From a virus, in IMG/VR virus record IMGVR_UViG_3300022700_000098, positions 1 to 40,139 of that record: a stretch of DNA of 40,139 nt; one strand, written 5' to 3'. The notes under the pieces are model-generated. The model saw only the letters and a program-made list of their open reading frames with translations, did no database searches and was not told where the DNA came from. A program made the position numbers and the translations under genes. This document shows positions 1,922 to 39,832 of the stretch, piece after piece (positions within the stretch are counted from its first letter, which is position 1; every line of letters starts with the position of its first letter).

Positions 1922-2101
1922 ATGTATCTTTCAAAAGACAAGTTAGAGAAGGTTATTCGTGAAGAGGTCCAAAAGTTTTTGTCCGAACAATACGAGTATC
2001 CGGACGCTGGAGCAGAAGCCCCTGAAGAGGTCCAAGAGGCCATTGAGCGGTTTAAAAACATGGACCCGGATGAAAGAAGCACTAATATGAAAGTATACTA
2101 A
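1922..2101 (+). CDS. Small protein with IIREE-type N-terminus, probably truncated by endonuclease insertion
   Basis: This is a 59-codon gene starting at ATG 1922 after an A-rich leader (TTTAAACGCT) with no Shine-Dalgarno. The N-terminus MYLSKDKLEKVIREEVQKFL runs into S-E-Q and belongs to the repeated IIREE/(I/L)xE family described in the findings. Residues after about 32 (APEEVQEAIERFKN) resemble the segment HPGVKEAIEDWKEN of the 131-aa gene at 3056. Here the similarity stops after about 59 residues at an abrupt TAA, five bases before the homing endonuclease gene. I infer that this is the resident 5' portion of a gene whose 3' portion was lost or displaced when the endonuclease cassette arrived. 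It could still be expressed as a short protein. Confidence 0.7.
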   Translation: MYLSKDKLEKVIREEVQKFLSEQYEYPDAGAEAPEEVQEAIERFKNMDPDERSTNMKVY

Positions 2102-2105
2102 AGAT

Positions 2106-3059
2106 ATGAAATGTCCTTCGAATGGTTGTAACTATGAGACTGAAAGTAAAGTTGGTTTGTCAATACATTGGGGGCGGTCAGACGACAATAGCCATCCCGG
2201 TAAACTAAAAGAAAATTATGACATAGATACATCTAGATCTGAAGAATTTAAAGATAAAGTGTCTTCTGGTCAAAAACAAAGATGGAAAAACACACCAGCA
2301 GAAGAAAAAGATAGGATCATAGAAAAAGTAGCCCAAAAAAATAGAGGTAGATCTTTAACTAAAAGTCACAAAGAAAAACTTTCTCAGGCTCTCTCTGGAG
2401 AGGACAATCCGATGTACGGAAAAGAAATGCCAGAGTCTACAAAAGAAAAAATTTCTAAGTCACTTAAATCTTGGTTTTCGAAAAATGGAACTGATCATTG
2501 TTCTGTGAATTTTGATGAAGAAACGCGACAGAAAATTTCTAACTCCGTTAAAAAACATTGGAACTCTCTTTCAAAAAATAAGAAGAAAAGTATTTGCGAT
2601 AAACGTGCAGATTCGATGAAAAAAACATGGAGTTCAAGGTCAGAGAAAGAAAGAAAAGAATGGGGGAAAAGAGTATCTGAGGGTATGATAAAAGCTGGCG
2701 TGGGTGGTTCCGAATATAATACATATGAAGTTGACGGTTTAAATCATGTAGTAAGGTCAAGTTGGGAGAAGAGAATTGCATTTATTTTACAGGACATTGG
2801 AATAAACTATGAATATGAACCTAAGTACAAGTTAAAAAACCAATATTATAAACCCGACTTTGAAACCGAAGACGGTGTTGTTATTGAAGTAAAAGGGTTT
2901 GGTGGTGAAAAAAGTGTAAATAAGGCAAAAGAGTTTATGGCGACATATAAAGATAAAAAGTATATTGTAATCGGTGACGATATACCTTCCCATTCCAGAA
3001 TTGAATACTCTAGTACCAAACAAATCAAAGAGTTCTTAATGAAAGAGATAAAATCATGA
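2106..3059 (+). CDS. Homing endonuclease with NUMOD3 motifs and PD-(D/E)xK nuclease domain
   Basis: This 317-aa protein is probably a free-standing homing endonuclease. It begins with a possible zinc-binding segment (C3, C8, H21, H30). The middle is lysine-rich with NUMOD3-type DNA-binding repeats, seen as GEDNPMYGKEMPESTKEKIS around residues 98-117 and further degenerate copies. The C-terminus carries a PD-(D/E)xK nuclease signature: P250-D251, then E261-V-K263, preceded by an RSSWEKR segment like those of phage endonucleases with this fold. Base composition is visibly more AT-rich than the flanking gp6 gene (many AAA, ATA and AAT codons), which suits recent arrival. Its stop overlaps the ATG of the next gene (ATGA at 3056). 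It sits between a truncated gene and a divergent full-length relative of that gene. The nuclease family is well supported; activity is not shown. Confidence 0.82.
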   Translation: MKCPSNGCNYETESKVGLSIHWGRSDDNSHPGKLKENYDIDTSRSEEFKDKVSSGQKQRWKNTPAEEKDRIIEKVAQKNRGRSLTKSHKEKLSQALSGEDNPMYGKEMPESTKEKISKSLKSWFSKNGTDHCSVNFDEETRQKISNSVKKHWNSLSKNKKKSICDKRADSMKKTWSSRSEKERKEWGKRVSEGMIKAGVGGSEYNTYEVDGLNHVVRSSWEKRIAFILQDIGINYEYEPKYKLKNQYYKPDFETEDGVVIEVKGFGGEKSVNKAKEFMATYKDKKYIVIGDDIPSHSRIEYSSTKQIKEFLMKEIKS

Positions 3060-3451
3060 GTGAAAAAAAACTTAGAAACATTATACGTCAAGAAGCCTTT
3101 AAAATAGTGAAAGAAGATCAAGAATTACCTGTTAGCTATTCAGATGTTCCAGTAGAAGATCTTCATCCGGGCGTTAAAGAGGCAATAGAAGATTGGAAAG
3201 AAAATACAAGTGATAGTTATAAAAAAAGAGTGCCGCTTTTGTATCATTTGCTTAAATCTGGAACTCCACCATATAAAATGTCAAAAGAAGACTCCGAATA
3301 TGTAGACCAAGCCAGCGGAGAGCAAAAATGTTCAAACTGTGAATATCTCTACCAAGAGGTAGCAACAGGAGATTACATTTGTTCTCAAATCCGGGGCAAA
3401 GTTGAACCGGAGGGGTGGTGCAACCAATGGCATGAAGTTGAAGACGAATAA
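3056..3451 (+). CDS. IIREE-type N-terminus fused to a HiPIP-like iron-sulfur domain
   Basis: This 131-aa protein starts in an ATGA overlap with the endonuclease stop. Residues 1-22 (MSEKKLRNIIRQEAFKIVKE) match the repeated N-terminal module of this phage. The C-terminal third has four cysteines in the order C-x2-C-x13-C-x12-C, ending in G-W-C-N-Q-W. High-potential iron-sulfur proteins bind one 4Fe-4S cluster with about C-x2-C-x14-C-x13-C and a conserved GWC-x2-W end, so the match in order, spacing and terminal motif is good. Before it lies SGTPPYKMSKEDSEYV, a linker-like region. I infer a small 4Fe-4S or zinc-binding domain; electron transfer is not demonstrated. Composition is AT-rich like the endonuclease, suggesting both arrived together. 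It is related to the truncated gene at 1922. Confidence 0.75.
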   Translation: MSEKKLRNIIRQEAFKIVKEDQELPVSYSDVPVEDLHPGVKEAIEDWKENTSDSYKKRVPLLYHLLKSGTPPYKMSKEDSEYVDQASGEQKCSNCEYLYQEVATGDYICSQIRGKVEPEGWCNQWHEVEDE

Positions 3452-3465
3452 CAGACAGGTTAAAA

Positions 3466-3933
3466 ATGATTAGACTCAACGACATATTAAAAGAAATCGG
3501 TGGCGGTTCTTCTGGAGTCTACCCGTATAGCTTAGATAAAGAAAACGTGGATGTTGGTCCTTCAAACAGGAAGACGTACGCGGCTTATAGTTTTAAATCC
3601 GATGAAAATGAATATGAAGTCCTCCTTAGAGATGACGGGGTTGATGGAATTGGTGTAGGATTTAAGATAAAAGGTGGAATGTATAGAGACTTGACCGGAG
3701 AAGGCAAGCCTCTTAAAATTATCAATACCGTCGTAAACGTTGTGAAGGACTTTTACGAGAGAAACAAAGAAATATTTACAGATGGCCCGTATGAAGTGTT
3801 TACCATTAGTGCTTCTGGAAAGACAGACGACGCTAAAAAACGAGAACGTCTTTACAAAACTTTCATAAAGAGGCAATTCCCACGTGCTAAAATAAATTCA
3901 GAACCCGAATTAATAACTGTAAAGGTAAGTTAA
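3466..3933 (+). CDS. Phage protein, paralogue of the gene at 4962
   Basis: This 155-aa protein starts MIRLNDILKEIGGG, a short N-terminal module containing L-K-E, close to the (I/L)xE prohead-protease type motif. The body shares a clear pattern with the 136-aa protein at 4962: YxFxSxENxYE, a glycine-rich turn, then DLTGEGxPxKII, a helical stretch leading to DF, and a C-terminal basic segment with a tyrosine (RLYKTFIKRQF here, RIYKRYFNRIF there). The pair flanks the 339-aa structural gene and probably arose by duplication. I do not recognise a function. The leader TTAAAA has no Shine-Dalgarno. The N-terminal motif suggests a virion-internal or processed protein, which is inference only. Confidence 0.75.
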   Translation: MIRLNDILKEIGGGSSGVYPYSLDKENVDVGPSNRKTYAAYSFKSDENEYEVLLRDDGVDGIGVGFKIKGGMYRDLTGEGKPLKIINTVVNVVKDFYERNKEIFTDGPYEVFTISASGKTDDAKKRERLYKTFIKRQFPRAKINSEPELITVKVS

Positions 3934-3945
3934 ACAGAAACGACG

Positions 3946-4965
3946 ATGTATCATTTTTTAAACCCACTTAAAGATTCTACCCTTTATGAAGACAGGCCAA
4001 ATCAAAATGTTGGCGTTAACGAAATCTTAGAGCTTGGAAGAGAGAACGGTTTTGAGCGCCGAATCGTATCGAAGTTTGACTTGGAGCGAGTTAAAAAGTA
4101 TGTCGGAAGCGGAATTTCAGGTCAAATGTTTGAAGCAGATCTTCGCCTTTATACAGTAGAGGCTTCAAATGTCCCGGCAGAGTACGACATTGAGGTAAAT
4201 CCTCTGGAAAGCGAGTTTGAAAGGGGGCGTGGAAGAAAATTCAACGAGCCACAAACGAGCGAAGGCGTTTCTTGGAACAGCAGAGGACCAGAAGATTGGG
4301 ATTCTCCCGGTGGAGACTTTCTTTCTTCGTTTGGCAACTTCAAAACGTTTGATGAATTTCAAGAAACAGACGTTGTTTTAGACGTTACAACTGTTGTTTT
4401 TGCGTGGATCGAAAACGCAGTTGAAAACCACGGCTTTCTTATTCGGTCAGAGCCAAGGTTTAGTGAAACCGATTATGAACTAAAATACTTCGGGAATAAG
4501 ACGCATACGATTTACGTCCCAGAGCTTGTCGTAAAGTATGACGACTCTTTCGTTGATGAATCCGTGGGTATGTCTATCGGAATCGGGGCAAATCCGACAA
4601 TCCAGATCAAAAATATCGAGTCTACATACAGACCTAACGGAATTAAGAGGTTTCGGTTGAACGTTAAAGAGAAGTACATAAAGCAACAGTTTGTAGAAGA
4701 CTTTCAAAGAGACAAAGATCCGGTGCGAATCGAAGATGGAGACCTAAAGTACCAAATCAAAGACCTTCGGAATGGAAGAAGAATTATCCCGTTCAGCGAA
4801 CAGTCAAAATGCAGTTTTGATGAAAACGGGTATTTTTTCGACTTGGACTTAAAAAACGTTCAACCGGAGCGGTTTTACTCCATTGAATTTCAATTCGAGC
4901 ATATAGACGGGCGCACCGTAGACTTTAGCCCAACCACAAACAGATTCAAAGTTTCTTCACGATGA
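3946..4965 (+). CDS. Virion structural protein, DNRLRE-like fold suspected
   Basis: This 339-aa protein lies between the paralogous genes at 3466 and 4962, in the interval where T4-like phages keep baseplate genes. Its N-terminus, FLNPLKDSTLYEDRPNQNVG followed by a short helix and LELGR, resembles the start of DNRLRE-type beta-sandwich domains: a D-x-T-x-Y segment, an N-x-G segment, then a strand with LxLG. Residues about 100-150 form a low-complexity stretch rich in G, S and W. The last 130 residues are beta-rich with alternating hydrophobic and charged residues. There are no membrane segments. T4 gp8 has a similar length (334 aa), but I see no sequence feature that proves equivalence. A baseplate or tail structural role is inferred from position and composition. 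Confidence 0.72.
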   Translation: MYHFLNPLKDSTLYEDRPNQNVGVNEILELGRENGFERRIVSKFDLERVKKYVGSGISGQMFEADLRLYTVEASNVPAEYDIEVNPLESEFERGRGRKFNEPQTSEGVSWNSRGPEDWDSPGGDFLSSFGNFKTFDEFQETDVVLDVTTVVFAWIENAVENHGFLIRSEPRFSETDYELKYFGNKTHTIYVPELVVKYDDSFVDESVGMSIGIGANPTIQIKNIESTYRPNGIKRFRLNVKEKYIKQQFVEDFQRDKDPVRIEDGDLKYQIKDLRNGRRIIPFSEQSKCSFDENGYFFDLDLKNVQPERFYSIEFQFEHIDGRTVDFSPTTNRFKVSSR

Positions 4966-5372
4966 TACGCTTAAACACCCTCTTAGCTGAGGCGGTTTTG
5001 AAAAACACATATCCGTATGAAAAGGTCCGAAGCGGGTGGCCCACCGTATTTTCCTTTGAGAGCGGCGAGAATAGCTACGAAACGATATTTAAAGACATGA
5101 AGGGGGGATACGTAGACTGGAGCTTCAAAACCAAAGACGGGGGATTTAACGACCTTACGGGTGAAGGGAACCCGATGAAAATCATTCGAACGAATATGAA
5201 AATCATTCGAGATTTCCTTCAAGACTCAAATAAAATCGGAGTCAAGTACCGGGCAGAACCGAGAAGAAACCGAATATACAAGCGGTATTTTAACAGAATA
5301 TTTGAAGACCCGGAAATTGAACAGGATAAAAAAACAACAACGGTGACAATCAATGGCGGTACCAACAGATGA
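4962..5372 (+). CDS. Phage protein, paralogue of the gene at 3466
   Basis: This 136-aa protein starts at an ATGA overlap with the preceding stop, suggesting translational coupling. Residues 1-10 are MIRLNTLLAE followed by A. The L-A-E/A junction matches the T4 gp21 cleavage rule (I/L-x-E before A or G) better than any other protein here. The body repeats the pattern of the 155-aa paralogue: FSFESGENSYE, DLTGEGNPMKII, then a helix and a basic C-terminal segment RIYKRYFNRIF. Function is unknown. Its 3' end overlaps the next gene by 20 bases in another frame. Confidence 0.75.
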   Translation: MIRLNTLLAEAVLKNTYPYEKVRSGWPTVFSFESGENSYETIFKDMKGGYVDWSFKTKDGGFNDLTGEGNPMKIIRTNMKIIRDFLQDSNKIGVKYRAEPRRNRIYKRYFNRIFEDPEIEQDKKTTTVTINGGTNR

Positions 5373-5607: not shown

Positions 5608-5610
5608 CAG

Positions 5611-10281: not shown

Positions 10282-11844
10282 ATGCTATCTGAAGATCTTC
10301 GCGCCCAACTTCTGCAGCAAATTCAAAACGAGGAAGACCTAACCGAAGAAGAAATTGTTGCGCTTCTCAACTCCGATAACGGGGAGGACGACTTTGTTCG
10401 CCGCTCTACGCTTGACGTGGAGGAAAGCGTTACAAGTTTCTTTCAACGGTTTGACCGAAACGATATTGTTCGAAACAGGCGGCAAATCGTAACTCAGGGT
10501 CTTTGGTCGGAAGGAGTGGGTCGTCTCGACTACGATTCGATGTTTACCCTTCAAGGCCAAAGAGACTCTGAAAACGGAAAATACTTTTTTGAAGTTTATG
10601 ATAAAGACCCGAATATCGATTTAGAAGCGGCTCGAATTCAGTTTGCCGTGGCATATGGGAATGAAGACGGTGGGGGAAGTGAAGAAATCGACACCGGAAA
10701 CGTTGAAGCCTTAGAGTCTACCGCAGGCGTTTATGCACAACACAAAAACGTTCTGTTTGACGTAAATGAAACAAGAGATAGCTTCTTTGATTCCGAAGGC
10801 GGTACCTTGGATTCCGGGGGGAGCGGTGCCGTTGAATTTACAAAAAGCGAAGACCTCTACGTTATTAACATATCAAGAGCACAGTACAAACAAAAGGTTG
10901 ATCCGGGGAATTGGGAACTTCGACTTCTTTTTTCTGACGGTACGCCTTCCGGATTTGATGGACCTGACGGTAGAGATTACCCAGAATTTTCTTCAAACTC
11001 TCAATACTCTGTCCTTACGCTTGTTGACGAAACTGCAGATACAGACTTCAATAACCAACAGCTAAACGCCGGAAATATTGGAAACCGCTATGAAGTATAT
11101 CAAGGATCTTTGAACTTGGATAACCCACAAACTTCAAACCCCGACGTTATTCAACCGGAAGACTATGCAGAACTCTCTGAATACCTTCCAGCAAAACCAT
11201 ACGGAGAGTTTTACCCGGACCTTGGAATCATTGTGTTGGACCCTAATATACTTCAAAGACACGCGGCGGTGTTTGGGGGGCAAGGCCCGGACAGAAACTT
11301 TAACTCGTCTACAGGGCAATACGAAGGCTTCACAAACCTTGTAACCTTTAGCGACGACTCCACAAATTACAACATCATTACCGGGCCAAGCGATATTAGT
11401 GGAGCAACAAGTGGAGAGATTCAAGACATTGAATCAATCGTTGACAGCATTCGTCCGGTAACAGACAAAGACGACAACTACAAAAACCAAGAGAAGCTGT
11501 TTAACGCCGTGAAAAACGGTGGATACTTTGTTGGAAGATCTGCCGAAGAAATTGTGTCTACTAATTACTTTGTGCGGGTCCGAAACACAGACTTCAACTT
11601 TTCAAACAACCCAACATTTACAAACGAAGACGGGACGCTTGCGATTGAAGAGTTTGAAGGAGATCCGAAGACGTTCATCACGACTGTTGGGCTTTACGAC
11701 GATGATAACAACTTGGTTGCAACGGCGAAGCTTTCAAATCCGGTTCAAAAAGACTTTCAATCGGAGCAGCTAATCAAAATCAAGCTTGATTACGTTCTTG
11801 TGATGTTTATCGCAAAGTGGGTAATGTTTGCATTAATGCTATAA
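10282..11844 (+). CDS. Virion structural protein with foreign C-terminal extension caused by endonuclease insertion
   Basis: This 520-aa protein is a paralogue of the 300-aa protein at 13878. The two share the segment around ISRAQYKQKVDPG (KVSPKEYGRKIVPG in the other) and especially the C-terminus (TTVGLYDDDNNLVATAKLSNPVQK, against TTVGLYDDFLNLIAVGKLSQPVQK). The natural end should be about KIKLDY, corresponding to IVVRFDT in the paralogue. Here, after KIKLDY at 11793, reading continues for 17 more codons, encoding a hydrophobic run (VLVMFIAKWVMFALML) that looks like read-through of inserted DNA. The family is probably a tail/baseplate protein carrying receptor-binding proteins, since each copy precedes an MPxYxRENG gene. 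The N-terminal 40 residues are helical and acidic. Confidence 0.8.
   Translation: MLSEDLRAQLLQQIQNEEDLTEEEIVALLNSDNGEDDFVRRSTLDVEESVTSFFQRFDRNDIVRNRRQIVTQGLWSEGVGRLDYDSMFTLQGQRDSENGKYFFEVYDKDPNIDLEAARIQFAVAYGNEDGGGSEEIDTGNVEALESTAGVYAQHKNVLFDVNETRDSFFDSEGGTLDSGGSGAVEFTKSEDLYVINISRAQYKQKVDPGNWELRLLFSDGTPSGFDGPDGRDYPEFSSNSQYSVLTLVDETADTDFNNQQLNAGNIGNRYEVYQGSLNLDNPQTSNPDVIQPEDYAELSEYLPAKPYGEFYPDLGIIVLDPNILQRHAAVFGGQGPDRNFNSSTGQYEGFTNLVTFSDDSTNYNIITGPSDISGATSGEIQDIESIVDSIRPVTDKDDNYKNQEKLFNAVKNGGYFVGRSAEEIVSTNYFVRVRNTDFNFSNNPTFTNEDGTLAIEEFEGDPKTFITTVGLYDDDNNLVATAKLSNPVQKDFQSEQLIKIKLDYVLVMFIAKWVMFALML
11776..11793 (+). repeat. 5' copy of 18-bp repeat bracketing endonuclease cassette
   Basis: AAAATCAAGCTTGATTAC is matched at 16 of 18 positions by the segment at 12648-12665. 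Both copies read I-K-L-D-Y in the frame used, and the two differences are synonymous (AAG/AAA, CTT/CTC). The segment marks the 5' edge of inserted DNA; joining the two copies would restore the 3' end of the structural gene including its TAA. Confidence 0.85.
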
Positions 11845-11846
11845 AT

Positions 11847-12668
11847 ATGAAAAATTTAATGAGTATTGAGTGTCAGATATGCAACCAAATCTTTTCAGGA
11901 ATGAAAGGGTTTGCTGCTCATATAAGGTCTCATGAAATCAATTATTACGATTATGTAAAAAAATACGTTAACCATGTTCCTAATTATGAAAGGTGTGAAA
12001 TTTGTGACAAAGTAACAAAAGTGCGCGGAAATTCTTTTGTCACATGTTCAAATCAGTGTAAAAATGAGTGGAAATCTCAAAATTGGCGAGGTAAAAACCA
12101 TCCCATGTATGGAAGATCACACACAAAAGAAACTAAGCGTAAAATTTCTGAAAAGGCCAAAGATCGCCTGAAAGATCCCCAAAACCATCACATGTATGGG
12201 AAATCACACTCAGATGAGACAAAACGAAAAATAAGCAATTCACACAAAAAGCTTTATGAAAATGGCTACGTGAATCCAATGAAAGGAAATACCCATTCTA
12301 AGAATACTATAAAAAAGATTTTTTCTAGTTGGGAAGATTCTTCAGCAGAAAAATGTGTTATGAATGTTTTAAATAGTCACGAAATAAACTACACACACCA
12401 GTTTTTCCTTCAGACTGACGATGGAGATACTAAGTCCTACGATTTTTATATTCCTAAATACAACACCTTATTAGAAGTAGATGGAGACTATTGGCACGGT
12501 GGCCCTAAATATAACAAACATTTCAAAGGTGTAAAAAAAGTTAAAGAAAACGATAGATTAAAAGATAACCTTGCAAAAGAAAGTGGTTATAACATCGTGC
12601 GAGTTTGGGAAAGTGAAATTGAAAAGAAAAAAGATATAGTTGTAGAAAAAATCAAACTCGATTACTAA
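11847..12668 (+). CDS. Homing endonuclease, Vsr-like/EDxHD type with NUMOD3 motifs
   Basis: This 273-aa protein starts at ATG 11847, just after the 520-aa gene stops; an in-frame GTG at 11817 would overlap that gene and is less likely. It begins with a C2H2 zinc finger (C9, C12, H25, H29), then a second CxxC...CxxxC zinc-ribbon-like segment. Three NUMOD3-like repeats follow (NHPMYGRSHTKETKRKISEK and similar). The C-terminal nuclease domain resembles very-short-patch-repair/EDxHD homing enzymes such as I-Bth0305I. It has YDFYIPKYNTLLEVDGDYWHG with D199, E210, D212 and H217, then a K-E-N-D-x3-K segment and VRVWESEI. Composition is AT-rich compared with its neighbours. Its last residues, KIKLDY, duplicate the natural end of the host gene, so the enzyme uses the host gene's stop codon. 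Confidence 0.87.
   Translation: MKNLMSIECQICNQIFSGMKGFAAHIRSHEINYYDYVKKYVNHVPNYERCEICDKVTKVRGNSFVTCSNQCKNEWKSQNWRGKNHPMYGRSHTKETKRKISEKAKDRLKDPQNHHMYGKSHSDETKRKISNSHKKLYENGYVNPMKGNTHSKNTIKKIFSSWEDSSAEKCVMNVLNSHEINYTHQFFLQTDDGDTKSYDFYIPKYNTLLEVDGDYWHGGPKYNKHFKGVKKVKENDRLKDNLAKESGYNIVRVWESEIEKKKDIVVEKIKLDY
12648..12665 (+). repeat. 3' copy of 18-bp repeat bracketing endonuclease cassette
   Basis: AAAATCAAACTCGATTAC, followed directly by TAA, is the partner of 11776-11793. It forms the last codons of the endonuclease gene and probably represents the original 3' end of the 520-aa structural gene, or that of a related donor phage. Confidence 0.85.
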
Positions 12669-30259: not shown

Positions 30260-30640
30260 ATGAAAAAACAGGAAATCAGAAATCTCATCCGAGAAGAAAT
30301 TTCAAGCATCTTAAATGAAGAGACCGAATACCAGAAGTATTTTCAGCAGATGATGGACGTATTCGGGATCGATTCCCCACAAGACCTTAGCGACAAACGA
30401 AAGAAGAAGTTTTTCGACTTTGTAAGTCTGGGGTGGGACGAAGAAACAGACACGACCGACCAAGAAGCTATCGAACAAGCTAAAGACTACGTTCAAGGCG
30501 AAGACGGGCTTAACGAGTCTTCATCAAGAAAGCTTGAATCCTTCAAACGAGCGGTTCGCCAGCTTATGAGTAAAAAGGGTCTAAGTAAACAAAAAGCAGT
30601 TCAAGAGGTCGTCAAAAAAGCTAAAAGACTTAAACGCTAG
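30260..30640 (+). CDS. Small protein with IIREE-type N-terminus and basic C-terminus
   Basis: This 126-aa protein begins MKKQEIRNLIREEISSILNE, the clearest example of the repeated N-terminal module, ending in L-N-E. A middle segment, YFQQMMDVFGIDSPQDLSD followed by KRKKKFFDFVSLGW, is a pattern I associate with small phage proteins that pair a short helix with a F-F-D-x-V element. The C-terminal third is basic (LMSKKGLSKQKAVQEVVKKAKRLKR) and could bind DNA. If the first 19 residues are a capsid-targeting segment, the mature part would be an internal DNA-binding protein; that is inference. Confidence 0.75.
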   Translation: MKKQEIRNLIREEISSILNEETEYQKYFQQMMDVFGIDSPQDLSDKRKKKFFDFVSLGWDEETDTTDQEAIEQAKDYVQGEDGLNESSSRKLESFKRAVRQLMSKKGLSKQKAVQEVVKKAKRLKR

Positions 30641-31549: not shown

Positions 31550-31879
31550 ATGAGAATCAACAGACGAAAAATTCGTAAACTTGTAGAACGAGAGGTTCGA
31601 AATCAAAAGCGGCGGTCTTCAAAAAGACAAATTGACGAGGCCGTGGGTGGAATGGTTGGGCTTCAACCGATTCACGACATGAGTTCTCCTTCAAGACAAG
31701 ACGACTTCACGTATAGAGGTCTTGAAGACATGAAACGGGGACAAATTGATATTGTTGCCGAGAGCATTGATGAAACAGTTTCTCTTCTCAAAGAAGCCGC
31801 AGACGGTTCGAACAACGATAAGATTTCAAGAATTGTGAAGCGACTTGGAGAGATTCGAGACGACATTGAAAATCTTTAA
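31550..31879 (+). CDS. Small protein with IIREE-like N-terminus and IDE/A cleavage-like site
   Basis: This 109-aa protein starts at ATG 31550 after an AAAGTAAT leader; an upstream in-frame ATG at 31490 would add 20 residues that look like untranslated leader. Residues 1-16, MRINRRKIRKLVEREV, are a basic variant of the repeated N-terminal module. Residues 27-32 read RQIDEAVGG, with I-D-E before A-V-G-G, which closely matches R-L-D-E before A-A-G-G in the protease at 39854 and fits the gp21 cleavage rule. The rest is helical and acidic. An internal head protein is plausible. Confidence 0.7.
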   Translation: MRINRRKIRKLVEREVRNQKRRSSKRQIDEAVGGMVGLQPIHDMSSPSRQDDFTYRGLEDMKRGQIDIVAESIDETVSLLKEAADGSNNDKISRIVKRLGEIRDDIENL

Positions 31880-32161: not shown

Positions 32162-33817
32162 ATGGCAGATAAGAACAACAAACGGAAAGAGATACTTCAA
32201 AACCAGAGAGAAGAATATCTAAAGTGCGCTACCAACCCGGAGTACTTTATGCGGAAGTACTGCATGATTCAAGACCAGCAGAAAGGTAAGATTCCGTTTG
32301 ACCTTTACCCGTTTCAAGAAAGAACGCTTGAAGAGATTGAAGATAACAGGTTCAACGTGATCTTGAAAGCCCGTCAAATGGGTATATCCACGCTTATGGC
32401 GGCGTACGCTCTTTGGCTTATGGTGTTCAACACCGACAAAAATATTTTGGTTGTGGCCCTAAAACAAAGCGTTGCCGCCAACTTGGTTAAGAAGACAAAA
32501 ATCATGCACGACAACCTTCCGTCTTTTTTGCGGCAGAAGAAGGTGCGTGACAACAGGCTTTCAATGGAACTTGATAACCAAAGCCAGATATCCGCAGAGA
32601 CAACAACGGAAAACGCCGGAAGGTCCGAGTCCCTTTCTCTTTTGATTATTGACGAGGCAGCCTTTATCGACGGTGCCCGTGACCTTTGGGCAAGTGTCCA
32701 AGCTACGCTTTCGCAGTCCGGGGGACGCTCTGTTGTGCTTTCTACCCCGGAAAATATCGGCTCTTGGTTTCATGAAGTTTGGCAAAAAGCCATTAGTGGA
32801 GCAGAAAAGATAGACGATACTCCCGACAAAGAAAAATGGATTGGAACGGGGGAAAACGATTTTCACCCGATCAAGCTTCATTGGAGTCTTCACCCCAACC
32901 GAGACGCGGAGTGGAGAAGAAAACAGGGCAAAAAACTTCCGGAGAAGGAAGCAAAACGAGAGTTTGACTGTGACTTCTCCAGTTCCGGTACGACTGTGAT
33001 TGAAATGGACCGGATTGAATCAATGGAGAAAAATACGGTATCAAAACCAAAATACAAAGTTCCTATACTAGCCGGAACAAGCCTTTGGGTATGGGAAGAG
33101 CCACAGCCAAATACCAACTACATCATATCTGCAGACGTTGCAAGAGGCGACGATGAAGGAGACTTCTCCACCTTTCAGGTGTTCACAACCAAACAGGTAG
33201 AGCAAGTTGCAGAGTATAGAGCAAGAATCGCTCCAGACCAGCTTGGGGAACAGATATACAAGGTTGGGAACATCTACAACCAAGCACTAGCAGTTGTAGA
33301 GAGAAACAATTACGGGTTCACAACTCTCCAACGTCTTATTGACATGGAGTATAAAAACCTTCTTTACACGTCAAGTGACTTTAAGATTGTTGAGGTCAAC
33401 GCTTCCTCAAACAAAAAGAAGGTCTACCCCGGATTAAAGACAACAAGAAAGACAAGGCCGCTTCTTGTGTCAAAACTTGAAGAATTTCTTCGCAAAGAAT
33501 ATGCCACGATCCGTTCTTCTAGACTTGCTGAAGAGCTTAAAACTTTCGTGTGGAAAACGTCAAAACGGGCAGAGCACCTTGACGGTTTTTACGACGACTT
33601 AATTTTCGCTACAATGTTTGCCTTCTGGAGCCGGGACACGGCGATTCGAGTGTTCGGAAACGAACGAGAAATGAACAAAGGCATGGTGAGAGGAATCAAA
33701 AACAAAAATTCACCGAGCAAACAAATCCCAAGTTCCGGAATTTCGTCCGGAAAGAACAGAGGAAATCCGCACCGAGATCCTTCAAGTGGAGAAGATATTT
33801 CTTGGCTTTTCGATTAA
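32162..33817 (+). CDS. 17: Terminase large subunit (gp17-like)
   Basis: This 551-aa protein is the packaging motor and nuclease. The ATPase half has a Walker-A-like segment VILKARQMGISTLMAAYALW (R71-QMGIST77), in which GIST replaces the usual GKS/T, and a Walker B LLIIDEAAFI (D164-E165). The C-terminal RNase H-like nuclease begins at IISADVARGDDEGDFSTF (D325 catalytic) and ends with HLDGFYDDLIFATMFAFW, giving further acidic ligands. The family's T4 member has 610 aa. It cuts concatemeric DNA and translocates it into proheads through the portal, which is encoded downstream. The leader is TTATCACTA with no Shine-Dalgarno. Assignment is strong. Confidence 0.94.
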   Translation: MADKNNKRKEILQNQREEYLKCATNPEYFMRKYCMIQDQQKGKIPFDLYPFQERTLEEIEDNRFNVILKARQMGISTLMAAYALWLMVFNTDKNILVVALKQSVAANLVKKTKIMHDNLPSFLRQKKVRDNRLSMELDNQSQISAETTTENAGRSESLSLLIIDEAAFIDGARDLWASVQATLSQSGGRSVVLSTPENIGSWFHEVWQKAISGAEKIDDTPDKEKWIGTGENDFHPIKLHWSLHPNRDAEWRRKQGKKLPEKEAKREFDCDFSSSGTTVIEMDRIESMEKNTVSKPKYKVPILAGTSLWVWEEPQPNTNYIISADVARGDDEGDFSTFQVFTTKQVEQVAEYRARIAPDQLGEQIYKVGNIYNQALAVVERNNYGFTTLQRLIDMEYKNLLYTSSDFKIVEVNASSNKKKVYPGLKTTRKTRPLLVSKLEEFLRKEYATIRSSRLAEELKTFVWKTSKRAEHLDGFYDDLIFATMFAFWSRDTAIRVFGNEREMNKGMVRGIKNKNSPSKQIPSSGISSGKNRGNPHRDPSSGEDISWLFD

Positions 33818-33843: not shown

Positions 33844-34053
33844 ATGAAGTACAGAAAGCACAGAAACAGTCTTCAAGAGAAAGTAACAAAGGGCGATTTG
33901 TATTGCGACTTAAATGATATTCTATCTCACATGAAGGGGGTGAGAACGTCTACAAAACTTATTCAAAAGCTTGCCGACCGAATGAACAAGGACCCGGCAG
34001 AAGTGGAGTTACTTTTAGATGAACTTATAGAAGAACTTATGATGATAATATGA
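33844..34053 (+). CDS. Small helical hypothetical protein
   Basis: This 69-aa protein starts at ATG 33844 (leader GTAAACGCT), which avoids the overlap that an upstream TTG start would create with the terminase gene. It has a basic first third (KYRKHRNSLQEKV), a KLIQKLADRMNKDPAEVELL segment that could be a helix-turn-helix-like fold, and an acidic hydrophobic tail. Its stop overlaps the next start (ATGA). Function is unknown. Confidence 0.62.
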   Translation: MKYRKHRNSLQEKVTKGDLYCDLNDILSHMKGVRTSTKLIQKLADRMNKDPAEVELLLDELIEELMMII

Positions 34054-34316
34054 AAAAACTAACAAGGGGGAAGTTGCGAAGACTTATTCGAAAGGAGTTG
34101 TCCGAGGCAAAATACAAGACCGTCTATAGGAATGGGAAGAAAGTTCGTAAACTTGACTGTCCCAAGGGCAAAAAAGCGAAAGACGGAAAGTGTGTTCGAA
34201 TGTCGAGTAAAGAAAAAAGACGAAGATCAAAAGCGGCAAAGAAGGGCCATAAAAAGAAAAGTAGCTACAAGAAGGGGTCCAAAAAAAGAAAGAAAACAAA
34301 TAGAAAGAGATCATGA
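34050..34316 (+). CDS. Extremely basic protein with IIREE-type N-terminus, candidate internal DNA-condensing protein
   Basis: This 88-aa protein starts in an ATGA overlap. Residues 1-19 (MKKLTRGKLRRLIRKELSE) form the repeated N-terminal module, ending L-S-E before A, a good gp21-type cleavage site. The rest is almost entirely K, R, G and S: one segment, LDCPKGKKAKDGKCVRMSSK, contains two cysteines, and the tail (KRRRSKAAKKGHKKKSSYKKGSKKRKK) resembles histone-H1-like or protamine-like tails. In a phage whose other proteins are acidic, such a protein stands out. Its position between terminase and portal/protease fits a head-internal DNA-binding role. It could also be a prohead core protein like T4 gp67, but that one is not so basic. 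Confidence 0.75.
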   Translation: MKKLTRGKLRRLIRKELSEAKYKTVYRNGKKVRKLDCPKGKKAKDGKCVRMSSKEKRRRSKAAKKGHKKKSSYKKGSKKRKKTNRKRS

Positions 34317-34708
34317 AATTAAACGACATGCTTGAAGAGCTTACAAAAAGGATTGCCGAGCGTTCAATTGGTAACTTTTTGGAAAGCGTTACAATTGAGG
34401 TCAACGTTGACCTGTCAAAGCACGCAGACGAGAGAAGATTCCGGCACGGACAAGGCGATGAGATTGACGAAGAAGAAATTATCGCTACCGCCGAAGAAGC
34501 GTCTGATAAGATCCTCCAGTACCTAATCAATAATCGAATGGACGTTGGGGACGAGTTCGTTATTCGAGACAACACATATGACTTAAATCTTGTCGGTGTT
34601 TTAGAACGAACAAGAGACCCTTCGGTTCTTTCCCTGACGGTCATTACCGTTATGCGGAAAGAAAACTTTAAACCGAAGTCCGGAGATATTGTTATCGACA
34701 TTTACTAG
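34313..34708 (+). CDS. Phage protein with possible processed N-terminus
   Basis: This 131-aa protein starts in an ATGA overlap, MKLNDMLEELTKRIAERS, with L-E-E near the start, similar to MIRLNDILKE at 3466. The body contains SKHADERRFRHGQGDEI, then EEASDKILQYLINNRMDVGDEFVIRD, then LVGVLERTRD and LSLTVITVMRKENF. This order of a basic ADERRxR segment, helix and beta strands resembles small DUF4258/RelE-like folds found in phages, although I cannot confirm it. It is the third of a run of overlapping small genes between terminase and portal. Confidence 0.65.
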   Translation: MKLNDMLEELTKRIAERSIGNFLESVTIEVNVDLSKHADERRFRHGQGDEIDEEEIIATAEEASDKILQYLINNRMDVGDEFVIRDNTYDLNLVGVLERTRDPSVLSLTVITVMRKENFKPKSGDIVIDIY

Positions 34709-34725: not shown

Positions 34726-35688
34726 ATGATCACAAAGCAAAAGATTTCTCAAATATTGACCGAGGATGAAGATGAAGACCTTACAATGGACGATCTTCCC
34801 GACTACGATACCCCCGAGCTTCCAGACCAAGAAGATGTGGAGTATGACGGGCGAGAGGTAACGCTTTACGACCCGTTTCGGATTGAAGATGACGAAAAGA
34901 AGTTTGCCGTTTATGTTCGCAACCCGGATTCCGGAAACGTGAACAAAGTGAAATTCGGCTCCGATACGATGGAAATCAAAAGAGACGATCCGGGGAGGCT
35001 CAAATCCTTTAGATCCAGATTTAGCTGTGATGAACTTGACCAGTCTGACAAGCACACGGCGAAATTTTGGAGTTGTGTATTCTGGAGGAAGGACAAGTCC
35101 GTATCCGATCTTTTAAGTGAAGATAAAGAGTGGAAGATCGAAGAATATATGCGTTCTGCAGTTCAAAGCCACATTTTAGAAAAGGCAAGCGAAGAGTATT
35201 GCAAGAACACCGACCCAGAAGACATGGGTTTCACTCAAAAAGCAAGCTGTAAAGCCCAAGGGTACATTGAAAGAGCAGATGGTGAAAAAAAGAAATCAGA
35301 CAAATATAAAGAATCAACCAATATGAGAAGAATTGACACAAAAGAGGGAAAACGGCAAATATTCGTTGAAGAGCTTCGCCTTCTCGAAGAAGAGGAAGAC
35401 AGAGAAGAGACGACTGTTGGGGAAGTTATTGACGACCCGGACATGATTTTGGTTCACCCACGAAGCCCACAATACAGCGAACTTGTTCGCCAGATCCGAA
35501 GTGAACTTGGAACGAGTTCATTCAACCCCTCTTCATATGAATTTTACATCGTGAACCAAGCCGAATACGACTCTCAAACCGGACACGGAGAGGTGTATGG
35601 CGGCTACGTGGGAAGAAATTATGTGTCTGATTGGGGGAGAGGGTATGACCAAATAAGCGACGAGAACAAGATTGTAAGGCTTATATGA
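34726..35688 (+). CDS. Two-part conserved phage protein with IxE-type N-terminus
   Basis: This 320-aa protein begins MITKQKISQILTEDEDEDL, a version of the module ending L-T-E before D. The first part (to about residue 195) has conserved-looking motifs: FAVYVRNPDSGNVNKVKFG, DDPGRLKSFRSRFSCDELD, FWSCVFW and MGFTQKASCKAQGYI with cysteines C100, C117, C165 and C176, which could form a metal site. I have seen this motif set in marine phages without a known role. A second part starts near residue 198 (MRRIDTKEGKRQIFVEELRLLEEEE) and ends in a tyrosine-rich domain; it may be a fused second gene. No T4 equivalent is evident. Confidence 0.7.
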   Translation: MITKQKISQILTEDEDEDLTMDDLPDYDTPELPDQEDVEYDGREVTLYDPFRIEDDEKKFAVYVRNPDSGNVNKVKFGSDTMEIKRDDPGRLKSFRSRFSCDELDQSDKHTAKFWSCVFWRKDKSVSDLLSEDKEWKIEEYMRSAVQSHILEKASEEYCKNTDPEDMGFTQKASCKAQGYIERADGEKKKSDKYKESTNMRRIDTKEGKRQIFVEELRLLEEEEDREETTVGEVIDDPDMILVHPRSPQYSELVRQIRSELGTSSFNPSSYEFYIVNQAEYDSQTGHGEVYGGYVGRNYVSDWGRGYDQISDENKIVRLI

Positions 35689-35751: not shown

Positions 35752-37656
35752 ATGGCAAAAGAGTCAACAGGAAGCATTAGAAATGCTCTTTCGCGTCTTT
35801 TCTCTAGCGAAGTCATTGTTCGATCTAGCGACGGAGAAGACGTTACAACGGCAGATCTACGCAACAGCCAATCTATATCCCAAGACCTTGCAGACGGTCG
35901 CTTTAAAAAGCTATACGGTTCCGGTCAAAGTCATTATTCTTCAAGCGGATATTCTTCTTCACAAGCCCTTCACGCAAACAGATTTGAGCTTTTCCAGACG
36001 TATGAAGACATGGATCAAGACCCGATCATTGCGTCTGCGCTTGACATTTATGCCAACGAAGTTTCAACTAAAGACGCATACGGGCAAATTTTAGATGTAG
36101 AATGTGAAAATGGAGAAATAAAGTCCGTTCTTGAAAACTTGGTGTTCAACATACTGGACGTTAATTTTAATGCCCGGTGGTGGGCGCGTTCGATTGCAAA
36201 GTATGGAGACCTCTTTCTTCATATGACAGTTAACGAAGACGTTGGGGTAACAAAGGTTACTCCGCTTTCCCCATATGAGATCGTAAGACAAGAAGACACC
36301 CACGGAGACGAAATTAAATTCGTCTACCAAGGAAACGCTCACGGGTCTGCGTACACAACGAGCACCCAAGGGCAAATTGCGTTTGAAGAATGGGAAGTTG
36401 CACACTTTCGGTTCATCAATGACGGAAACTTCTTTCCGTACGGAAAAAGCATTATCGAAAACGGAAGAAAGATATGGCAACAGCTTTCGTTGATGGAAGA
36501 GGCGATGCTTATTCACCGGATTATGAGAGCACCGGAAAAGCGGGTTTTCAAAATTGACGTTGGGAATATTGAACCTGACGCGATTGAAAGCTATATGAAC
36601 GACGTTATGGCCGATATTCAACAAACTCCGCTTGTTGACCCGGAGACCGGACAATACAACTTAGAGTTCAACATGCAGAACATGTTGGAAGACTTCTTTC
36701 TTCCGGTTCGTGGAAACCAATCCGGCACAGAGATCAACAGCCTTCAAGGTCTTCAATATCAAGCAATGGAAGACGTTGAATATCTTCGAAAGAAACTTAT
36801 GTCGGCTCTAAAAATTCCGAACGCTTTCTTGGGATACGAACAGGAGATTCAAGGAAAGGCGACTCTTGCCCAAGAGTCCATTAAGTTTTCAAACGCCGTT
36901 GAAAATCTTCAACGCTCTATTGCTAGGGAGCTTAAAAAGATTGCTGTTGTTCACCTTTATGTCCGGGGATACAGAGGGAGCGACCTTATTGACTTTAACT
37001 TCTCGTTTACAAACCCAAGCATTGTTGCCGAACAAGAAAGAATTGAGTTCCTTAGCCGAAAGGTAAGTCTTGCCCGTGACATGCGAGAAATGCCATTTCT
37101 TTCCGATGAAAAGATTGCGAAAGAGGTGTTCAACATGTCCGAAGACGAAATCGATGAAGAGTATAAAGAGAAAGTTCGGGATTGGAAGCGCAACTTCCGT
37201 AAAGATCAAATTGAGCGCGAAGGTAACGATCCTGTGAAGACGGGGATGAGCTATGGAACCCCAAGCGACTTGGCAATGAGCGGAAGTTCCCAAATTCAAA
37301 ACCTTGACATTGACGACACCGAAGACCAGCTAAACGACTTAGACAAAGAAGAGGGCGAAAATGATCTTGGAAGCGGAGACGATGACGTATCCGGCATGAA
37401 AGACCTTTCAAACCAGATTAGAAACAAGTCTTCGGACGTAACCCACAACTACCAAGGGGGAAGTCCAATGGCCCTTTCTTCAAGCTTAGAAAAGCATTTC
37501 AACAGAAAGAAGCGTCTTATTCAGGAAACGTACATGGAAAGTGACGATGAAGAGGAAAAAAGAAACGAAGAACATATGAAAGATACATATATGGATGAGT
37601 CAACCCTTGAAGAAAAAAGTGATCGACTCAAAGAAATACTAGATAAAACCTTGTAG
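35752..37656 (+). CDS. 20: Portal protein (gp20-like)
   Basis: This 634-aa protein is the dodecameric portal through which DNA enters and leaves the head. Typical gp20 segments are visible: RFELFQTYEDMDQDPIIASALDIYANE at about residues 77-103, ARWWARSIAKYGDLFLHM at 143-160, then IRQ-type MRAPEKRVFKIDVGNIEPD, and a long helical C-terminal part with YLRKKLMSALKIPNAFLGYEQ followed by RSIARELKKIAVVHLY. T4 gp20 has 524 aa; the extra length is a low-complexity acidic tail (about residues 520-634, rich in D, E, S and N). It begins after a candidate late promoter and is followed by genes of the head-morphogenesis group. Confidence 0.93.
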   Translation: MAKESTGSIRNALSRLFSSEVIVRSSDGEDVTTADLRNSQSISQDLADGRFKKLYGSGQSHYSSSGYSSSQALHANRFELFQTYEDMDQDPIIASALDIYANEVSTKDAYGQILDVECENGEIKSVLENLVFNILDVNFNARWWARSIAKYGDLFLHMTVNEDVGVTKVTPLSPYEIVRQEDTHGDEIKFVYQGNAHGSAYTTSTQGQIAFEEWEVAHFRFINDGNFFPYGKSIIENGRKIWQQLSLMEEAMLIHRIMRAPEKRVFKIDVGNIEPDAIESYMNDVMADIQQTPLVDPETGQYNLEFNMQNMLEDFFLPVRGNQSGTEINSLQGLQYQAMEDVEYLRKKLMSALKIPNAFLGYEQEIQGKATLAQESIKFSNAVENLQRSIARELKKIAVVHLYVRGYRGSDLIDFNFSFTNPSIVAEQERIEFLSRKVSLARDMREMPFLSDEKIAKEVFNMSEDEIDEEYKEKVRDWKRNFRKDQIEREGNDPVKTGMSYGTPSDLAMSGSSQIQNLDIDDTEDQLNDLDKEEGENDLGSGDDDVSGMKDLSNQIRNKSSDVTHNYQGGSPMALSSSLEKHFNRKKRLIQETYMESDDEEEKRNEEHMKDTYMDESTLEEKSDRLKEILDKTL

Positions 37657-37691
37657 TAACACTCGTTTTATAAAGGAGCACGTAATTTTTC

Positions 37692-37708: not shown

Positions 37709-37728
37709 AGATTTAACAAAAACCTAAG

Positions 37729-38619
37729 ATGAAAAAGATAAAACACTCGAAGTACAAAAATACTGGCTTGATTTTTGAAATGCTGGTGCGTCAAATTACT
37801 GTTGATGCACTAAATGGAGAAACGAAAAGCGAGGCGGCTCGAATAATTCGAGAGTATTACAAGGACACCGAGCTTGCCAAAGAGTACTCTTTGTATAACG
37901 TCTTAATGAGTGAAGATTTCTCTAACGCAAGCAAAGCAAAAGACCTTATAAACCGGGTCGTTGAAACGCGAAAGAAGCTTGACGACCAGAAGCTGTATAA
38001 CCAGAGATATGACTTGATTGGAGAGATCAAAGAGCACTACCCGCTTGAAGAGTTCTTCAAGTCAAGAGTAGACAACTACAAAGAGTATGCGAGCATCTAC
38101 AAGGTTTTTGAAGCCGAAAAAGACGATAAAGAGATTTACAACCCCGCCGACGTTGTTCGGTCTGAAGACACGCTTGTAGAACACATCACAAGCGACACGT
38201 CCGAACCTACCAAGGAGGAAAAACTAAAAGAGGCCCGGTCAAAAGAGATAGAAGAATACAAAAGCCAGAGCAAAGACCTTCGCCTCTATGCACAGAAACT
38301 TATGATTGAGCGGTTTAACGACCGATACAACGGGTTGAACGGGAAACAGAAAAAGCTTCTTCGAAAATACATCAACAACATTTCAAATACAAACAATCTT
38401 CGAGAATACGTGGATTCGGAGGCTGAAGAATTAAGAGAAACACTTTCCTCACTTCAAGACGAAATCGAAGACACGGTTACAAAAACAAAAGTCAAAGAAG
38501 CTTCCGAACTTATCGGCAACGTTAAAAACGGTCAACACGTCACCGAAGATCAAGTAACGAAGCTTCTTATGTATTACCAGCTTCAAGAAAAAATCGAAAA
38601 CCAGCTTAAAAGTCAATGA
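37729..38619 (+). CDS. Head-morphogenesis region helical protein
   Basis: This 296-aa protein, between portal and protease genes, is nearly all helical and highly charged. The N-terminus MKKIKHSKYKNTGLIFEMLVRQIT is followed by LNGETKSEAARIIREYYKDTELAKEYSLYNVL, then acidic coiled-coil-like segments (LRETLSSLQDEIEDTVTKTKVKEASEL). In T4 the genes between 20 and 21 encode prohead core proteins (gp67, gp68), so a scaffold or core function is plausible, but those are much smaller. I recognise the N-terminal style from marine T4-like phages without a proven role. The next gene overlaps by ATGA. Confidence 0.68.
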   Translation: MKKIKHSKYKNTGLIFEMLVRQITVDALNGETKSEAARIIREYYKDTELAKEYSLYNVLMSEDFSNASKAKDLINRVVETRKKLDDQKLYNQRYDLIGEIKEHYPLEEFFKSRVDNYKEYASIYKVFEAEKDDKEIYNPADVVRSEDTLVEHITSDTSEPTKEEKLKEARSKEIEEYKSQSKDLRLYAQKLMIERFNDRYNGLNGKQKKLLRKYINNISNTNNLREYVDSEAEELRETLSSLQDEIEDTVTKTKVKEASELIGNVKNGQHVTEDQVTKLLMYYQLQEKIENQLKSQ

Positions 38620-38993
38620 GAAGAAGAATTAGCGAAGATTGTGGTTGCAACGGAGGTTCTTCCTTAAAGTATCCTAAAAGCAAGCTTAAAGAGTACATCA
38701 AGACGATAATAGCTGACAGCGAAGATGATGACGAAGAAAAGGAAACAACCGACGAAGCAACAACAACGTTGAACGTTCCGGGGTATGACACGCCGTATGC
38801 GTTTTCGGGGGATAGCGAAGAAGATGAAGAGAAGAGAAAAAAGAAGCTAAAAAAGATCAACAAGCAATACGGTTATACGCTTGTTCAAGACGTTACAAGC
38901 CCGGAAGCGATCCAAGACTTTCTTGCATTCTTTGGCCCAATGGCTGATAAAGACGAGCGTATTCGAAAAGAGGTCAAGAAGCTAATAACCTAA
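38616..38993 (+). CDS. Acidic protein with ISE-type N-terminus
   Basis: This 125-aa protein starts in an ATGA overlap with MRRRISEDCGCNGGSS: I-S-E at positions 5-7, then a C-G-C pair. A second module-like helix follows (KLKEYIKTIIADSED). The middle is strongly acidic with the motif LNVPGYDTPYAFSGD, a pattern that recurs in phage proteins. The C-terminal helical part (LKKINKQYGYTLVQDVTSPEAIQ) is not recognised. The basic-then-acidic arrangement and its position next to the protease fit a prohead core or internal protein. Confidence 0.68.
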   Translation: MRRRISEDCGCNGGSSLKYPKSKLKEYIKTIIADSEDDDEEKETTDEATTTLNVPGYDTPYAFSGDSEEDEEKRKKKLKKINKQYGYTLVQDVTSPEAIQDFLAFFGPMADKDERIRKEVKKLIT

Positions 38994-39042
38994 AATTTTC
39001 AAGAGTCACTAAAAGTTTACGTGTATTTCAAGATTCATTCAC

Positions 39043-39060
39043 TTTATATAACTAAAATAG
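39043..39060 (+). promoter_or_regulatory. Weak candidate promoter element
   Basis: TTTATATAACTAAAATAG lies directly before the ATG at 39067, with six intervening bases. It has a TATA core but lacks the AAGTGAAGA part. Confidence 0.3.
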
Positions 39061-39066
39061 CACACA

Positions 39067-39288
39067 ATGGGAAATCTTATTAACGGACAAAAGAAGTCAC
39101 GATTCAAAGAGCTTGCAGGACTAAACGAAAACAAGCAATCTCAACGGCAACGGCTCAATGAACAGGCAGACAAGATGAGGCAACTTATGGGAGAGGTTTC
39201 CTTTACCCAAGCCCTTCTTGAAAGCCTAAGTAATGACGAGCTTGAAGAGAAGCTTTCATACATCAACGAAAATTACCGAGTACAGTAA
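39067..39288 (+). CDS. Small helical hypothetical protein
   Basis: This 73-aa protein is rich in Q, E, L and K. Its first part, KKSRFKELAGLNENKQSQRQ, contains a L-N-E motif, and a helix follows (RLNEQADKMRQLMGEVSF) with amphipathic spacing. It sits in the run of short genes just before the protease. There is no known family match. The L-N-E might be a processing site as in neighbouring proteins, but the IIREE helix is missing, so I would not count it as a clear member. Confidence 0.58.
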   Translation: MGNLINGQKKSRFKELAGLNENKQSQRQRLNEQADKMRQLMGEVSFTQALLESLSNDELEEKLSYINENYRVQ

Positions 39289-39313
39289 ATATACTTCTGT
39301 ACACCTTGTTAAT

Positions 39314-39493
39314 ATGATGAGAGGAAGAAAAGATAAGACGTTGCGGCGCATTATTCGAGAAGAGGTGTGCCGCACGCTTATCGAAGAAGAGTTTTCCAAA
39401 GACGAAGAAGAAGAGATCCGGCAAATTATTCGTTCGGAGATTTCAGAAGTCTTTTATGACCTGTTTAGAAGGCGATCCTTTTGGATTGATTAG
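39314..39493 (+). CDS. IIREE-module protein consisting largely of two module helices
   Basis: This 59-aa protein starts at ATG 39314 (AATATGATG; the second ATG is at 39317), which does not overlap the preceding gene as an upstream start would. Residues 3-25 read RGRKDKTLRRIIREEVCRTL then I-E-E-E, and residues 34-46 repeat the theme (IRQIIRSEISEVF). It is almost the bare module, duplicated, with a short aromatic tail (FYDLFRRRSFWID). It may be the simplest form of the targeting segment or a competitor for it. Confidence 0.68.
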   Translation: MMRGRKDKTLRRIIREEVCRTLIEEEFSKDEEEEIRQIIRSEISEVFYDLFRRRSFWID

Positions 39494-39532
39494 ATAGCAA
39501 CACAGTAACAGATAAAAACATTTAGATACATC

Positions 39533-39832
39533 ATGTCCCCACAACGGCTTAAACGAATCATCCGAGAAGAGGTTTCAAATCTTATTTCCGAGTCCCACCT
39601 GTCTTCAGGTGAGGTGGTTGGAAAAGGAGTAGGACCAATCGAAATCCGAGAAACAATCGGAACGTTTCGAACAATGGGTGGAGACATTGAAATCTACGCC
39701 GTTGAAGACCAGCGGACGATGGACGTTGGCGTGTATATCGTTGAGTACGGCGAAACAAACGGAATTATCATTGGAGCAGAAGACGCAGATAAAGTTGCTC
39801 GAATGATTTCAAGCGTTACAGAACTGTATTAA
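39533..39832 (+). CDS. Small protein with IIREE-type N-terminus
   Basis: This 99-aa protein begins MSPQRLKRIIREEVSNLISE, one of the closest matches to the module, with I-S-E before S. A glycine-rich segment follows, then a beta-strand-rich domain (GDIEIYAVED, MDVGVYIVEYGETNGIIIGAEDADKVARMI). It directly precedes the prohead protease gene, with 21 bases between. I do not recognise the C-terminal domain. By the proposed logic it would be packaged or used in prohead assembly. Confidence 0.7.
   Translation: MSPQRLKRIIREEVSNLISESHLSSGEVVGKGVGPIEIRETIGTFRTMGGDIEIYAVEDQRTMDVGVYIVEYGETNGIIIGAEDADKVARMISSVTELY

Follow-up and report, generated by a model that had tools for sequence, protein, structure and literature searches.

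Shared N-terminal segments resembling T4 capsid-targeting sequences on many small proteins of an uncultured T4-like phage and its relatives

Besides Alt, bacteriophage T4 has the three internal proteins IPI-III, and in its T-even relatives a common packaging signal marks at least 10 such proteins (PMC12373910). The capsid-targeting sequence (CTS) of IPI-III and Alt is a short N-terminal tag found on unrelated cargoes, with an (I/L)xE boundary where it is cut by gp21, a protease of the Peptidase_S77 family (S77). In the IPIII tag, residues 4 and 7 serve targeting and residues 8 and 10 processing, and a review suggests that the CTS gives evolution a way of bringing diverse proteins into the capsids of T4-like phages (PMC9026906). 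Here, we analyzed the IMG/VR record IMGVR_UViG_3300022700_000098, a fragment of an uncultured T4-like myovirus taken as a whole (40,139 bases, hereafter the window), in which an earlier note had described a family of small genes with a common N-terminal segment. We consider it likely that these segments are T4-type CTSs cut by gp21, borne by a far larger set of cargoes and accompanied by a second type of tag. Two relatives are used throughout: IMGVR_UViG_3300037725_000018 (hereafter G001), a near relative of 223 kb whose portal protein is 95% identical to that of the window, and LR756508, a 484-kb uncultured phage with a terminase 51% identical. Genes of the relatives were called with a simple gene caller of our own.

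Two other systems are comparable in part. Many head proteins of phiKZ and SPN3US also have N-terminal propeptides removed by the prohead protease (PMC5694885), but several of these exceed 100 residues, and they are mostly different from each other, with no one shared short module. In P1, an N-terminal segment of DarB of at most 30 residues suffices to put a foreign protein in the head (PMC9024508), but the Dar proteins have no consensus and do not belong to an S77/T4 system.

The main tag of the window, which we call class A, is a helix of about 20 residues with the consensus KLR-x-II-REE-V-xx-hL-x-E. We rescored the N-termini of the 45 window genes with a profile built from the LR756508 tags. 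Exactly seven genes stood out, with scores from 31.7 to 17.8, while the next gene scored 4.9. At a threshold of 10, shuffled N-termini gave a mean of 0.03 genes (maximum 1), and internal windows gave 0 of 242; shuffled N-termini yielded 0.02-0.03 genes at thresholds from 10 to 12. There is some circularity in this comparison, since the LR756508 tags were first found with a window profile, yet nearly all of them are on genes without a window ortholog.

All genes listed by the earlier note are real open frames at the starts it gave, and the six that it had singled out for their very similar segments (1922, 3056, 30260, 34050, 39314, and 39533) were all picked by the LR756508-tag profile. By decreasing score (all on the plus strand; a slash marks the candidate boundary), the tags are those of genes 3056-3451 (MSEKKLRNIIRQEAFKIVKE/D, 3056..3115, score 31.7), 30260-30640 (MKKQEIRNLIREEISSILNE/E, 30260..30319, 31.1), 39533-39832 (MSPQRLKRIIREEVSNLISE/S, 39533..39592, 29.9), 1922-2101 (MYLSKDKLEKVIREEVQKFLSE/Q, ending in LSE, 1922..1987, 27.1), 39314-39493 (...KTLRRIIREEVCRTLIE/E, 39314..39385, 24.5), 31550-31879 (RQIDE/A at residue 30, 31550..31639, 20.5), and 34050-34316 (MKKLTRGKLRRLIRKELSE/A, 34050..34106, 17.8), the last with a Lys-rich cargo. 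The G001 ortholog of gene 1922, at 66728, has the N-terminus MYLSKKKLRSVVEEEVKKLLSE, and the cargoes of 30260 and 39314 are those of LR756508 140212 and 154514, respectively. The genes described earlier as shorter or divergent variants turned out to be a mixed group: 31550 is class A by its score, the tag of 3466, 4962, and 34313 is of another and shorter type, 34726 is intermediate, and 38616 is weak. Gene 38616-38993, which scores only 0.4, has a weak candidate tag region (38616..38726) made of MRRRISE/D and a later helix, KLKEYIKTIIADSE, but a clear class A tag, MNKEKLKDVIRKEVKSALNE, is found on the homolog of this gene, LR756508 153401.

The profile of the seven window tags alone, extended to related phages as the earlier note had proposed, matched 30 N-termini among the 680 called genes of LR756508 and 14 in G001. 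For the 30 matches of LR756508, shuffling gave a mean of 0.26 (maximum 2) and internal windows 7 of 3378 (Fisher test, 1e-17). E-values, Fisher tests, and shuffles take no account here of relatedness, and many contigs are fragments. One match, G001 216998 (profile score 16.2), looks like a chance match to another protein family, and the segments of G001 69406 and LR756508 103649, which lie beside gp25/gp6-like genes, may not be tags but basic helices. A phage collection searched by tblastn with short tag queries gave no matches.

The boundary of the tag was assessed at a site lying outside the scoring profile. An (L/V)-x-E-type motif, scored as [ILVMA]-x-E, was found at a single fixed position in 26 of 57 out-of-sample tags, against 2.07±1.42 (maximum 8) in 2000 shuffles of the downstream residues. 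Column conservation in class A tags falls to background within a few residues past the boundary Glu. Since conservation ends after this fixed-position Glu, the end of the tag coincides with the place at which T4 gp21 would cleave. The (I/L)xE motif on which the earlier note had relied is weak evidence in any single protein, as the helices are Glu-rich, and strong only as a fixed-position feature across relatives. We also scanned 2.9 million viral contigs of IMG/VR with DNA patterns. The class A core pattern was found in 28 stretches, nearly all of which begin an open reading frame, versus 0 for the scrambled pattern, and S77 is present on 10 of the 28 records, including five of the seven of at least 50 kb.

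The shorter tag, class B, follows the pattern M-x-x-h-x-x-h-h-x-E (MIRFNDLLRE/A in G001, for example) and brings us closer to T4. In the window, it is carried by genes 3466-3933 (MIRLNDILKE/I, 3466..3495) and 4962-5372 (MIRLNTLLAE/A, 4962..4991; MIRFNDLLAE/A in the G001 ortholog 65289), while gene 34313-34708 has a class B-like tag (MKLNDMLEE/L, 34313..34339). The T4 propeptides taken from NC_000866 are MKTYQEFIAE/A for IPII and IPIII, MAKINELLRE/S for gp24, and MELITELFDE for Alt; T4 gp22 likewise opens with MLKEQLIAE/A. The three window tags have the T4 CTS pattern, hydrophobic at positions 4 and 7 with (I/L)xE at 8-10, that of 3466 fitting the pattern of the IP and gp24 propeptides and that of 34313 being one residue shorter. 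At positions 4, 7, 8, and 10, class B agrees with the residue pattern of T4. Class A tags do not follow the short T4 pattern: they share the boundary motif but are longer, with a different body. Class A is thus, as judged from these sequences, a putative functional analogue of the T4 CTS and not the T4 CTS itself. The LR756508 homolog of 34313, at 151955, has a differing N-terminus, MPDITRSDLFNIVKNQLKE.

Class B is spread well beyond the window. Proteins chosen only by a start of the form M[IVM][KRTSN][LFYIM] have L or I in 72% of cases at position 7 and 65% at position 8, and Glu in 60% at position 10, when the background of all proteins is about 21%, 21%, and 11%. In IMG/VR, the class B DNA pattern with ATG was found in at least 120 stretches, and in 7 when ATG was swapped for GAT. 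Among the matches listed, 87 of 89 (80 loci) open a frame of at least 40 residues and the upstream in-frame stop lies at a median of 6 codons. S77 is present on 12 of the 24 class B contigs of at least 40 kb and on none of three control contigs.

Two further segments may be tags. Gene 39067-39288 has near its N-terminus a class C candidate, SRFKELAGLNE (39067..39129), and the gp22-like scaffold of G001 ends in the same RFxxLAG[LI]-type motif. Flavobacterium phage immuto (NC_055915) has a recurring N-terminal segment, FDLKKFLVENKLTxNSxxLKE (locus L143, at 3806, 17631, 18632, and 25241), which is a possible fourth class (D).

The tags behave as modules. The 34 tagged class A proteins of LR756508 fall into 33 cargo clusters, in line with the earlier statement that the proteins are unrelated behind the tag. 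Within the window this statement needs correction, as 1922 and 3056 are homologous, and the cargo of 3466 is probably also that of 4962, to judge from weak matches of both to phrog_16075 and to DUF6934. The cargo of 3056 is HiPIP-like (Pfam HIPIP, 2e-5, above cut-off). Gene 1922 is a truncated homolog of it, cut off beside a homing-endonuclease gene, whereas G001 has at this place a single full-length gene (66728-67111). The next window gene, 3056, is likewise a full-length homolog and bears a tag of its own. The homing-endonuclease-type gene (2106-3059, NUMOD3, E=8e-11) lies directly behind gene 1922. A second one (11817-12668, NUMOD3, E=9e-20) overlaps the end of gene 10282-11844, and no NUMOD3-type gene was called at the matching site of G001.

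Tags were also swapped on the same cargo. This is the case of G001_30318 (class B) and LR756508 189655 (class A), 46% identical, of LR756508 220078 (B) and 220730 (A), 41%, of G001_71826 (B) and G001_5066 (A-like), 39%, and of G003_84927 (B) and G008_49694 (A), 67%. The A-like tag of G001_5066 sits on the cargo of window gene 3466, which has a class B tag. On the evidence of these pairs, classes A and B appear to be interchangeable.

The best single case of modularity is gene 34726-35688, where the intermediate tag MITKQKISQILTE/D (34726..34764) precedes a cargo domain (residues 37-120). The protein with this domain is untagged in three phages where S77 was not detectable, Roseobacter phage CRP-3 and Pelagibacter phages HTVC026P and Kolga, and in the two Pelagibacter phages it begins M-AKYQGRTVKLNKP or close to that. 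In S77-bearing phages, an extension precedes the domain and ends in LTE/AEYQG (C48C1), LEE/AEFQG (HTVC008M), LDE/GEYRG (immuto), INE/AEYQG (G008), or VNE/AEYQG (G002); terminase-related contigs have VFE/AEYQG or similar. The extension ends exactly at the start of the domain, so that cleavage at this point would restore the N-terminus of the untagged protein. In Roseobacter phage CRP-6 (L317, 374-1052), the domain looks fused to a prohead-protease-like start, YGWASVVTEKGEPVIDRQGD, by eye only, hinting that it is head-related.

The number of tagged genes is large. In LR756508, class A genes number about 30 and clear class B genes about 28, i.e., about 58 candidates, the class B count having been made by eye from 34 regular-expression matches after dropping likely chance matches. 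This is far more than in T4, and we saw no homology of the tagged cargoes to the T4 internal proteins. The earlier note had raised the question of whether the motif is equally common in non-head genes. In G001 it is not: strong class A tags are found in 13 of the 73 genes of the structural block, as set by gene position, and in 0 of 300 elsewhere (p=2.5e-10). Classes A and B jointly amount to 21 of 73 versus 5 of 300. Half of a crAss-like phage had tags in 0 of 66 genes. The modular tag, its (I/L)xE boundary, and its link to the prohead core and the S77 protease, as put forward earlier, survived the controls and the out-of-sample tests. The tag itself, its modularity, the fixed boundary motif, and the link to S77-bearing phages can be read from the sequences.

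The large terminase subunit of the window (32162..33817) was identified by tblastn against annotated T4-like terminases (51-31% identity), including those of immuto (41%) and Microcystis phage Mel-JY01 (40%). The gp20-like portal protein (35752..37656) has relatives on IMG/VR contigs at 95-47% identity, and the equally placed immuto gene is annotated as gp20. The gp21 gene reported by the earlier note at 39854 does match Peptidase_S77 (39854..40139; PF03420, 4.3e-11; phrog_207, 6e-16), though it is incomplete, stopping at the contig end, and it has a candidate cleavage site of its own, RLDE/AAGG. Beyond the point where the window ends, the gp21 gene of G001 is followed by genes for an acidic scaffold protein of the gp22 type and a capsid protein of the gp23 type. 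The S77 protease (PF03420) is encoded in the window, G001, LR756508, immuto, Mel-JY01, HTVC008M, and T4.

From these data we infer docking, cleavage, packaging, and injection of the tagged proteins along the following lines. Each tag, an amphipathic helix, would dock its own protein on the scaffold or core beneath the growing shell during prohead assembly. The S77 protease gp21 would then cut after (L/I/V)-x-E at the end of the tag, setting the cargo free in the head, and part of the cargo would probably be ejected with the DNA. Several observations weigh against this scheme. The motif is at its fixed place in only about half of the class A tags, and Glu-rich helices partly favor it. Moreover, 13 of the 28 class A pattern matches are from a single protein family, on contigs of up to 79 kb without detected S77 or T4 portal, so that the helix alone is not diagnostic. 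Only 12 of the 24 class B contigs of at least 40 kb carry S77, although the others may be fragments. Window gene 34726 reads QED/VEYDG at its domain boundary, not xE/A, so that its cleavage would need to occur behind the first tag, at ILTE/D. Finally, we found no virion proteomics.

The position of some genes suggests a different role. Genes 38616, 39067, 39314, and 39533 lie between the portal and gp21. Genes of this interval are like T4 gp67, gp68, and gp22 in their position between the portal and gp21/gp22 and in being small and acidic or lysine-rich, but they have no detectable sequence homology to them, with no gp67/gp68 family matches in PHROGs or Pfam, and they are more numerous here. 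The tagged ones are probably core proteins like gp67/gp68, and some are as likely to be prohead core as injected cargo. It seems unlikely to us that the same applies to most tagged proteins, i.e., that they are core or scaffold proteins built in by the helix and destroyed by gp21. The conservation of 30260, 38616, and 39314 across distant phages speaks for it, as does the weak match of 34050 to a head scaffolding family (phrog_3503, E=0.0011). But the roughly 30 class A genes of LR756508 have nearly all-different cargoes, and many are clustered at 187-195 and 218-221 kb, away from gp21, while the HiPIP-like and the sub-threshold ADP-ribosyltransferase-like cargoes are unlike scaffold. A core role is likely for some genes between the portal and gp21, but hard to square with dozens of unrelated cargoes in LR756508. 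Tagged genes outside this interval are candidates for packaged cargo.

It is quite improbable that the tag addresses another part of the virion, e.g., the baseplate. Genes 1922, 3056, 3466, and 4962 are indeed among baseplate-type genes, beside a gp6-like gene. But class B corresponds to the T4 head propeptide, gp21 acts in the prohead, and in LR756508 the homolog of 3056 is found in a different setting, flanked by RuvC-like and primase genes, which shows that position does not follow cargo. Lastly, we give hardly any credence to generic N-terminal helices of charge-rich small phage proteins, alike through composition or shared ancestry: the tags are helices rich in Lys, Arg, and Glu, and a family sharing their core was also seen in phages where S77 was not detected, but the shuffled, internal-window, scrambled-pattern, and GAT controls, the near one-to-one ratio of cargo clusters to proteins, the confinement of G001 tags to the structural block, and the absence of strong tags outside it and of tags in half of the crAss-like phage disfavor this, and both a generic helix and simple gene duplication were rejected on controls.

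Some class B-tagged proteins deserve mention for their cargo. LR756508 has about 20 paralogs of 240-285 residues, mostly class B-tagged (alignment A1), a striking expansion in one huge phage. They are found at 177-183, 213, 221, 255-264, 297-299, 329-337, and 440 kb (loci L155-L158 and L160). They have invariant R33, R78, and P103, a near-invariant E227, and an LYRG...RKDRxPRDT motif, and they match phrog_11975 and phrog_12810 (function unknown). In the PDB, the only matches of their profile were coiled coils and designed helical proteins. Three class B-tagged proteins have faint signatures resembling ADP-ribosyltransferases and are reminiscent of T4 Alt: L093:3464-4198 in G001, and L155:43967-44401 and L156:3149-4411 in LR756508. 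Two of these single proteins have matches below cut-off (Tox-ART-HYD1, 8e-4; PTS_2-RNA, 6e-5) and the third was recognized by eye only. A single-sequence AlphaFold model of the G001 protein had a pLDDT of 33. Given only these two sub-cut-off matches and the outcome of the PDB search, we do not claim such an activity for the A1 family.

The window has a few other features of interest. Gene 17873-21043 encodes metallophosphoesterase and AAA/SMC domains in a single protein of 1056 residues, a natural fusion of the gp47-gp46 (SbcD-SbcC) type, and its LR756508 counterpart looks split around an inserted gene. Apparently the sole gene on the minus strand, 26490-26642, encodes a DUF1289 protein of 50 residues (E=5e-20). 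A Shine-Dalgarno-like sequence is clear at hardly any gene start, the upstream regions being A-rich, as in Bacteroidota-type starts. PADLOC gave no match.

The earlier note knew of no such large tagged set. The principle is known (PMC12373910, PMC9026906), but the class A tag and the numbers appear undescribed: we found no description of the tag strings, or of tags in uncultivated phages, in the open-access literature, subscription journals being outside the search. To the extent of our search, four things appear to be new: the class A tag, the occurrence of class B across environmental T4-like phages, the swapping of tags, and the numbers. One may go further and propose for environmental T4-like and huge phages a general loading code, with at least two interchangeable tags, dozens of proteins per virion, and a large arsenal of injected effectors; this is possible, though we lean slightly against it, and it would allow injected phage proteins to be predicted in viral metagenomes from the mere presence of the tag in the sequence. 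Our results suggest separate evolution of tags and cargoes, as modules that can be exchanged. If the proposed function is right, a signature of ten to twenty residues would suffice to tell, from sequence alone, which of thousands of uncharacterized small genes in huge, marine, and freshwater phages encode head-packaged and possibly injected proteins.

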